Part shown: positions 29,290-44,842 of the stretch, in pieces | Numbering within the stretch: the stretch's first letter is position 1 | Layout: every line of letters starts with the position of its first letter | Assembly: GCA_023249725.1 (NCBI GenBank) | Contig: JAHFBZ010000003.1 | Location: 1-64,000, forward strand | Length of the DNA: 64,000 bases | Direction of reading: 5' to 3' | DNA from: Methanobacteriaceae archaeon | GTDB taxonomy: Archaea > Methanobacteriota > Methanobacteria > Methanobacteriales > Methanobacteriaceae | The notes under the pieces: model-generated | Told to the model about the DNA's origin: nothing | Databases searched by the model: none | The model's input: only the letters and a program-made list of their open reading frames with translations | Made by a program: the position numbers and the translations under genes

Positions 29290-30297
29290 TTAATTACATT
29301 CTTTTCTTTCTTTAATCATCTTTAAAAACTCAGCAGGAGTTTCTATTTCTCCCATTTCCCAGCCGTGGACCACAGGTATCCCATCCAAGGATTCCTTAAT
29401 TTTCTCATTATCCAATATGAAAACAGAACTGGATCCGGTAATAAGTGAAAGATCTTTTAAAGTTATGGCCATCTTTTTTAGCGTTCTTTGTTTTCGATTT
29501 TTTTCTAAATTGGTTATGAGTGGTGTTTCAACATTTTTTGAAATCGGGTTATTGCTTTCCAGTTTGGCCAAAGCATCAAAAGGAGTTTTTTGGGTGGGAA
29601 TAATACCAAAACCCAATTCAACTAGTTTTTGAGGTTGAAATTCATTCATATTAATTTTATTATCATTTAATGGAGATTCATTTGATTTGCCAATATTTAA
29701 TTCTTTTAATGAATCAGGGACCTTGAATAAATCAATAGAAAGAGTTATTTTAAGATTTAAAATGTCTTCCAGCATCATAGCGGTTTCAGGACAGGCCCTT
29801 ACAATTCCATGTTCGTATTTATAAATGGTTTCCCTTGATACATGGGCCAAATCAGCTAAATCTTTTAGAGAAAGATTATAATCTTCACGAACTTCCTTTA
29901 AAACTTCTCCATTTATCTGGACATAATATCCACCACGATCTGCCAGAATTTCAGGATATTCTCCCTCAATAATCATGTTTTTAAGGGTTTCCAGACCAAT
30001 AACTGGTATACCATGTCTTTCATACACCACATCTTCTTCCAGGTGCTCATTTTTTGATTTAAGGCCTACAATCAAGGGGGAGGCCATAAAACTGCGTGAT
30101 ATTTTTCTTATTTCCTGGGCCTGGACGCCATTTATTCCATCTATATTAACTAAAACTTTTAATAGTAAGAGCAATAACTTTCTTCGAGCAACCATGTCAA
30201 AGCAACTTCGCTCATAAATATGGGAAGTTTCAAATCCATTATTGGCTAGAAGTTGGTTAATTTCTTGAAGGACGTGGCCCCGTTTTATATTAGTCAT
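29290..30297 (-). CDS. HTH-type transcriptional regulator (archaeal COG1395-like)
   Basis: This is an archaeal regulator of about 335 residues with a nuclease-like N-terminal part (about 1-120) and a Cro/C1-type helix-turn-helix (LSLKDLADLAHVSRETIYKYEHG, about residues 140-162). The C-terminal region is of unknown role. I set the start at the ATG at 30297, preceded by GGTGCTTTT; the frame is open further upstream. The start codon is only 19 nt from the divergent tiaS start. This makes it a candidate regulator of tiaS and of itself. Confidence 0.88.
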   Translation of the reverse strand: MTNIKRGHVLQEINQLLANNGFETSHIYERSCFDMVARRKLLLLLLKVLVNIDGINGVQAQEIRKISRSFMASPLIVGLKSKNEHLEEDVVYERHGIPVIGLETLKNMIIEGEYPEILADRGGYYVQINGEVLKEVREDYNLSLKDLADLAHVSRETIYKYEHGIVRACPETAMMLEDILNLKITLSIDLFKVPDSLKELNIGKSNESPLNDNKINMNEFQPQKLVELGFGIIPTQKTPFDALAKLESNNPISKNVETPLITNLEKNRKQRTLKKMAITLKDLSLITGSSSVFILDNEKIKESLDGIPVVHGWEMGEIETPAEFLKMIKERKECN

Positions 30298-30302
30298 AAA
30301 AG

Positions 30303-30310
30303 CACCGGTG
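30303..30310. promoter_or_regulatory. palindromic shared Shine-Dalgarno, CACCGGTG
   Basis: The 8-bp palindrome CACCGGTG supplies GGTG ribosome-binding sites on both strands: one 5 nt before the HTH regulator ATG (30297) and one 6 nt before the tiaS ATG (30317). The gap is too short for a promoter, so each transcript must start inside the opposite gene. Confidence 0.85.
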
Positions 30311-30316
30311 AAATCG

Positions 30317-31615
30317 ATGAATGAATTATATGTTGGTATAGATGATACAGATTCCCCAGAAGGAATGTGCACTACTTATATAACTTTTGTAATTATCAAT
30401 GAACTTAAAGATTTTGGTTTTGAGATTGCAAGTTATCCTAGATTAATTAGACTTAATCCATTTGCCAGATTCAAAACCAGGGGTAATGGTGCCGTTTCAT
30501 TTAAATTAATTGTGGATTCTCAGTTAAAAAAAGATGAGGCCAAAAAAATAATTTTAGATGCTGTTAAAAACTTATCAGAAATGGATAATGAAAATACAAA
30601 TCCTGGTGTGGTATTTTACGAGGCAAAAAGTATTAATGGGCAAATGGTAATGGATAATCGACTTCCAGTATTTGCTACTCGTGCAATAAAAGAAATTTTA
30701 ACTATTAAAGAAGCTGAAAAACTTGCTAAAGATGTTAATGCAGAAATACATCAATTTAAAAAAGGTAGGGGAATTATTGGAGCTCTAGCAGCCATAGGTT
30801 GTTATCTGAGAGATAGTACCTTTGAATTACTGGCCTACCGGCTACCTGAAAATTATGGTAGTGCCAGAAAGATTAATCCAGAGTCGGTAGTACATATGGA
30901 TGAAATAACATACCCCCAAACCTTTGATAATCTCGATGAAGGCTACATGGCTATTGAACCACACACTCCCTGCCCTATTTTATATGGAATTAGGGGAGAA
31001 AGTCCTGAAGCAGTTCTGGAGGCTCATAATTTAGTTGAATCACTGGAACCTATTGAAGGATATTTTATTTTCGAAACAAATCAGCATACCGATATGCATC
31101 TTCAAAAAATCAGTAAAATCTCTGATATGAAACAGTTTGCATGTTATATTATAAATGGAGTAGTAAAAGATAACCCTCGCGTCATTGAAGGAGGCCATAT
31201 CTTTTTTACATTAGAGGATTCTTCTGGAGAAATAGAATGTGCTGCCTATGAACCTACTAAAAGATTTAGAAATATTGTTAAAAAACTAATTCCTGGTGAT
31301 AAAGTAGAAATATATGGTGGTATTGGTACTCAAGAGACTTTGAACATAGAAAAAATTAGAATAATGGGACTAGCTCCACTTTTTAAAGAAGAAAATCCAT
31401 TATGTGATTGCGGTAAACGAATGAAATCCGCCGGTGCAGGTAAAGGATTTAAATGCATTAAATGTGGTAATAAATTGAGAGATGGGCAAAAACTGCGAAT
31501 TGAAATTCAAAGAGATATTAATGAAGGTTTTTATGAAGTTCCACCATCAGCTCGACGTCATTTATCTAAACAATTGATTAGAATGGCTAAAAAATCACAT
31601 GATTGTATTTATTAA
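30317..31615 (+). CDS. tiaS: tRNA(Ile2) 2-agmatinylcytidine synthetase
   Basis: TiaS attaches agmatine to C34 of tRNA-Ile2 so that it reads AUA codons; it is archaea-specific and normally essential. The sequence begins ELYVGIDDTDSPEGMCTTY, the family's catalytic N-terminus. An OB-fold domain (about 280-350: GGHIFFTLEDSSGEIECAAY) and a zinc ribbon (CDCGKRM ... CIKCG near residues 360-385) follow. The ATG at 30317 is set by GGTGA; a GTG nine bases upstream lies in that site. T-rich tracts follow the stop. Confidence 0.94.
   Translation: MNELYVGIDDTDSPEGMCTTYITFVIINELKDFGFEIASYPRLIRLNPFARFKTRGNGAVSFKLIVDSQLKKDEAKKIILDAVKNLSEMDNENTNPGVVFYEAKSINGQMVMDNRLPVFATRAIKEILTIKEAEKLAKDVNAEIHQFKKGRGIIGALAAIGCYLRDSTFELLAYRLPENYGSARKINPESVVHMDEITYPQTFDNLDEGYMAIEPHTPCPILYGIRGESPEAVLEAHNLVESLEPIEGYFIFETNQHTDMHLQKISKISDMKQFACYIINGVVKDNPRVIEGGHIFFTLEDSSGEIECAAYEPTKRFRNIVKKLIPGDKVEIYGGIGTQETLNIEKIRIMGLAPLFKEENPLCDCGKRMKSAGAGKGFKCIKCGNKLRDGQKLRIEIQRDINEGFYEVPPSARRHLSKQLIRMAKKSHDCIY

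Positions 31616-43636: not shown

Positions 43637-44842
<1,206 letters not shown>

Follow-up and report, generated by a model that had tools for sequence, protein, structure and literature searches.

A 19-nucleotide gap between divergent regulator and tiaS genes in Methanobacteria: abutting Shine-Dalgarno sites and candidate promoter signals within codons

A divergent regulator-target pair with a shared intergenic operator is a general textbook arrangement. The locus described here is similar in that a gene for a helix-turn-helix (HTH) protein lies beside and divergent from another gene, tiaS, but in species with a compact gap there is no room between the two genes for promoters or an operator, and the palindrome found there corresponds to two Shine-Dalgarno (SD) sites. 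The pair can also be compared with the excludon, which the available text of PMC7154746 describes in bacteria as neighbouring genes whose mRNAs overlap in antisense. As in an excludon, the regulator and tiaS are divergent and are predicted to have complementary mRNA 5′ regions, each potentially antisense to the other. Unlike the excludon of that source, this pair is archaeal, and its predicted overlap would span tens of bases over both ribosome-binding sites. The overlap of adjacent mRNAs that defines an excludon would be implied here by the geometry and by SD placement, and the other excludon trait, repression of a gene by its neighbour's transcript, may accompany it.

According to the available text of the original reports, TiaS makes agmatidine, which is needed to read AUA codons (PMC3017900; also PMC5178350), and deletion of tiaS in Haloferax volcanii succeeded only when a copy was supplied in trans (PMC3017900). 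An earlier, sequence-only reading of the locus had called tiaS an essential tRNA-modification gene; the Haloferax work (PMC3017900, available text) supports the term, on a basis that is not from methanogens. On the regulator side, COG1395 is named only as an archaea-specific HTH protein in the available part of PMC1852104, and no solved-structure relative of the regulator was found by sequence. A literature search that left subscription journals mostly outside its reach yielded neither a start-site map for Methanobacteriales nor a prior account of such an arrangement.

The gene pair and its gap across the class

The window, a 64-kb stretch of DNA from a Methanobacteriaceae archaeon, carries the pair as follows.

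29290 to 30297, minus strand: HTH regulator gene, archaeal (NF003162/PRK04140), 335 aa
30317 to 31615, plus strand: tiaS, gene for tRNA(Ile2) 2-agmatinylcytidine synthetase, 432 aa

The regulator belongs to PRK04140, as its match to NF003162 scores 356 bits (cut-off 263), and HTH_3 and HTH_19 are also over cut-off. In the tiaS product, the three TiaS Pfam domains (TCKD, FLD and zinc ribbon) all exceed their gathering scores, and an OB fold is over cut-off as well. Its NF040849 score of 477 bits is below the cut-off of 600, which is reached by none of 95 genomes of the class, so that these TiaS genes would escape automatic annotation based on NF040849. At G000:C33:9119-9565 (L002), a second sequence is distantly related to the TiaS N-terminal domain (32% identity), in agreement with the weak match between tiaS and methanogenesis marker 11. 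The tiaS gene itself carries AUA, the codon whose decoding needs the TiaS product, at codons 8 and 22 (30338-30340 and 30380-30382), and 16 of the 21 compact loci defined below share the AUA of codon 8.

The regulator starts at an ATG complementary to 30295-30297 and tiaS at the ATG of 30317-30319, which confirms the 19-nt separation (30298-30316) noted in the sequence-only reading. Start codons further inside either gene would undo this geometry; homologues favour the annotated starts, and an SD is placed for them in all nine compact genera. An N-terminal extension of the regulator into tiaS was rejected: although the frame ahead of the regulator start stays open over 78 nt in the window, this opening is not conserved and extends for only 0-15 nt in 10 of 21 compact loci.

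A survey of the order (150 genomes) located tiaS in 144 genomes and the regulator in 142. When G150, from elsewhere in the class, is added to form a class-level set of 151 genomes, the divergent pair occurs within 1.5 kb in 125. The ends of the matches are at most 45 nt apart in 21 genomes (compact) and at least 66 nt apart in the other 104 (wide). The earlier reading had proposed comparing the gap in other Methanobacteriales, and the comparison shows a compact gap kept in 21 loci that represent all members of nine genera (g1, g2, g4 and g15-g20), against the 104 wide-gap genomes. The pair was not seen in 26 genomes, where a gene was missing from the assembly, the two were on different contigs or they lay apart. 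All five g8 and all six g14 genomes are among those without a linked pair, which shows that the genes need not be linked; those of g8 are either separated by 8-16 kb on a single strand or placed on different contigs. The phylum pool consisted of 95 genomes, all of one class, and the adjacency comparison covers that class alone.

In a tiaS tree of 39 rows (21 compact, 18 wide or unlinked), compact and wide loci are split on one branch with support 97/93, and the contrast between them therefore represents one evolutionary event, however many species are counted. Because G150, of another order by its kinship label, falls on the compact side, the compact gap was probably ancestral in the class and left once, by the wide-gap clade.

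The gap is also rare within genomes. Divergent gaps were called with a home-made gene finder, which replaced an earlier version (coding share 0.70 and 0.53 in two samples), and their median length was 322 nt in 618 kb of a congener of the window species, 162 nt in 800 kb of g19 and 104 nt in 180 kb of G150. When both genes were required to score at least 40, regulator/tiaS was the tightest of 19, 58 and 11 divergent pairs, respectively, and the next-tightest well-supported pairs were separated by 154, 81 and 29 nt. With weak gene calls included, the pair ranked second of 79, second of 101 and first of 20.

These numbers bear on the possibility that the compact spacing has no regulatory meaning and is simply a gene order frozen by accident, the promoters being located in adjacent coding sequences, as they are in many compact genomes. 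We consider this plausible, although short of an even chance. The short divergent gaps of G150 are consistent with it, and the widening in one clade, together with the absence of a linked pair from g8 and g14, indicates that tight linkage is not required. However, the pair is constant at 19 nt in all three congeners despite the median gap of 322 nt in the sampled congener, and every one of the 21 members of the nine genera has kept the compact gap.

The palindrome between the start codons

The gap and the adjoining end of the regulator gene contain the following features, of which the palindrome was defined by sequence, shuffles and a 21-locus comparison.

30303 to 30310, no strand assigned: palindrome CACCGGTG, two abutting SD cores
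30303 to 30306, minus strand: regulator SD, GGTG, 5 nt from the regulator ATG
30307 to 30311, plus strand: tiaS SD, GGTGA, 5 nt from the tiaS ATG
30284 to 30291, plus strand: weak candidate tiaS TATA box TTTATATT, in regulator codons, which would give a nearly leaderless mRNA

As the sequence-only reading had stated, each strand receives a GGTG from the palindrome, that of the regulator at 5 nt and that of tiaS at 6 nt from the start codon. Two GGTG elements at these distances from starts 19 nt apart must abut, and thus the perfection of the palindrome is not separate evidence. CACCGGTG occurs twice in the window, compared with a mean of 0.10 over 100 shuffles; its second copy, at 43867-43874, is within a coding region.

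Matches to the anti-SD sequence, which we take to be that of the 16S 3′ end, are at least 4 nt long and at a normal distance from their own start for tiaS in all 21 compact loci and for the regulator in 20, so that both sides are matched in 20 of 21 loci (nine genera). The two matches abut in 12 loci and are separated by 1 base in four, by 7 bases in two and by 2, 3 or 4 bases in a single locus each. One half of the palindrome is lost in the congener L008, and none of 50 wide-gap or unlinked loci contains CACCGGTG. When the regions preceding congener genes were searched for motifs without supervision, GGTGA emerged at about −11, which indicates that SD-led translation is normal in the genus.

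A DNA-binding dyad is expected to keep the spacing of its half-sites, whereas ribosome-binding sites keep their distance to the start codon, and leaderless mRNAs would not need SD sites. The fact that each half tracks its own start while the separation varies from 0 to 7 nt, rather than being fixed across species as in an operator, argues against the proposal that the HTH regulator binds CACCGGTG as an operator for both genes, whose mRNAs would be leaderless or nearly so. So do the half lost in L008, the absence of CACCGGTG from the wide-gap loci and the finding that TTTATATT is not kept in two congeners. The perfect 8-bp palindrome of the window and a 12-bp perfect palindrome, ATCACCGGTGAT, in G150 would suit an operator, as would the TATA-like TTTATATT and CATATAAT, which are at about leaderless distance in the window, one per strand. 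On balance we regard an operator as highly improbable, and the earlier suggestion of two leaderless genes flanking one was abandoned. On the comparative sequence evidence, CACCGGTG is two back-to-back SD sites.

Synonymous constraint and candidate promoters within the coding regions

If both SDs are in mRNAs, then start sites would be at or past their far edges and TATA boxes would be inside the opposite genes. The sequence-only reading had likewise placed each promoter inside the opposite coding region. The lack of room in the gap favours this placement for both genes, and the comparative data below support it for the regulator promoter; the tiaS promoter was not located. Three features within tiaS are relevant.

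30376 to 30383, minus strand: candidate regulator TATA box TTATATAA, in tiaS codons 20-23, which would predict a start site near 30353
30371 to 30442, no strand assigned: region of low synonymous divergence, compact species only, about tiaS codons 19-42
30402 to 30418, minus strand: conserved core element (plus strand AACTTAAAGATTTTGGT, consensus AACTTAAANNTTNNGGT), in tiaS codons 29-34, a putative upstream regulator control site or weak BRE-TATA

TATA-like sites were scored with a matrix built on the intergenic regions of g19 (consensus aAAAAATTTATATA; the motif begins at a median of −63 relative to the start codon). This matrix was applied to all species, with coding controls per genome, although g19 is a different genus from that of the window; a matrix trained on a congener failed to settle on a TATA box. 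Within tiaS codons, ACAAAAGTTATATA on the regulator strand scores 8.1 in five loci of g1, g2 and g4, a value reached in the congener by 4.1% of equal-size antisense coding stretches versus 42% of intergenic upstream regions. The core of ACAAAAGTTATATA is TAT-ATA at tiaS codons 21-22. This codon pair occurs at 14 of the 21 compact loci and at none of the 50 wide-gap or unlinked loci used for the Tyr-Ile count, where Leu is encoded in place of Ile. TAT-ATA makes up 13% of Tyr-Ile codon pairs in G138, 6% in G147 and 31% in G150. The hexamer TATATA is absent from g16, g17, g18 and one g19 locus. In wide-gap loci, the best TATA-like site is within the gap for tiaS in 20 of 20 cases and for the regulator in 17 of 20. 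The g10 loci L158-L173 have a gap of about 70 nt, inside which the TATA-like sites of both genes face each other.

Synonymous constraint was measured as the codon-difference rate among residue-identical codon pairs in 12-codon windows. At tiaS codons 25-36, this rate is 0.05 versus 0.31 for the gene in g19 (8 species, 1st percentile), 0.14 versus 0.42 in six f1 genera (8 species, 2nd percentile) and 0.10 versus 0.30 in g18 (4 species, 3rd percentile). The constraint is tied to gap class: in wide-gap species, represented by 20 of the 104 genomes and by g10 and g9 only, the rate is 0.43 (30th percentile; g10, 16 species) and 0.63 (98th percentile; g9, 4 species). In a circular-shift test of the three compact profiles, a joint minimum like that observed (window from codon 23) arose in 0.6% of 20,000 trials (P 0.006), the motif and region having been picked after inspection. 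Leu30 is the sole single-codon column (CTT, 20/20) among 12 Leu columns conserved in at least 18 of 21 species, and GGT is used in 20 of 21 species at Gly7 and Gly34 only, of 26 Gly columns.

Wide-gap relatives lack both the core AACTTAAANNTTNNGGT and TTATATAA. On the regulator strand, the core element precedes TTATATAA by about 30 bp, a position that suits a candidate upstream control site of the regulator. Read as ACCNNAANNTTTAAGTT, it also resembles a weak BRE-NN-TATA, and as a TATA box it scores poorly in g19 (1.5). A regulon search of 1.66 Mb of sampled sequence revealed no recurrence of the core motif at promoters; it returned scattered coding matches and two intergenic near-matches in G147, of which one is a half-palindrome and the other, with up to 2 mismatches, is just before a gene.

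The constraint in codons 19-42 might instead act on the tiaS mRNA, its translation or an overlapping frame, since the region is transcribed as tiaS mRNA and codon difference in compact loci is likewise low over codons 1-12 (3rd percentile). We judge this unlikely, as the signal is absent from wide-gap tiaS and an open continuation of the regulator frame into tiaS is not conserved. An RNA element was tried and rejected: the region gave no Rfam match at E up to 1 and no consistent folding signal, the z-scores of 8 of the 21 compact loci ranging from −1.9 to +1.0 against mononucleotide shuffles alone.

For tiaS, no single conserved TATA box was found among the compact loci. Strong TATA-like sites occur near −198 of tiaS in eight g19 loci (scores 9.6-10.5) and near −166 in four g1/g4 loci (score 8.9), and both sets coincide with regulator codons. 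The regulator coding region shows no joint constraint across the compact groups (shift test P 0.37). Codons 55-66 of the regulator have a very low codon difference of 0.01 in g19 (L019-L026) and 0.00 in g18. The plus-strand TATA-like sequences GCAAACTATTTATA (10.5) or GTAAACTATTAATA (8.6) overlap or adjoin these codons, about 190-200 nt before tiaS, and the segment in these two genera is a possible distant tiaS promoter.

A predicted arrangement of the two transcripts

The interpretation that we favour, and consider fairly probable, combines abutting SDs with promoters inside the opposite genes. The 19-nt gap has little in it besides two SD sites, one per strand, and SD-led mRNAs would start upstream of them, which places each promoter inside the opposite coding region. 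The regulator promoter and its conserved upstream element would be contained within tiaS codons about 19-42. Judging from SD placement, the two mRNA 5′ ends would be complementary across both ribosome-binding sites. The compact arrangement is probably maintained because a wider gap would strand both promoters; in the wide-gap clade, most TATA-like boxes are now in the widened gap. The sequences show directly how the starts are placed, that the SDs are conserved, how rare so short a gap is and that the constraint in tiaS follows gap class. The identity of the promoters, the start sites, the RNA overlap and any control through it, such as the mutual interference or antisense control raised in the sequence-only reading, are what we infer from this arrangement.

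A more ambitious form of the same idea is an archaeal excludon written in codons. The regulator promoter and a control site would be in tiaS codons 19-42, the leader would run over the tiaS ribosome-binding site and the regulator level would be balanced against AUA decoding, in a class-wide system lost once. We view this form as doubtful.

The locus is thus a case in which a gene that is essential in another archaeon apparently carries promoter information within its codons, and the wide-gap relatives provide a natural control for an embedded promoter. If the predicted mRNA overlap is true, then these genera would carry conserved archaeal antisense 5′ ends over both ribosome-binding sites.
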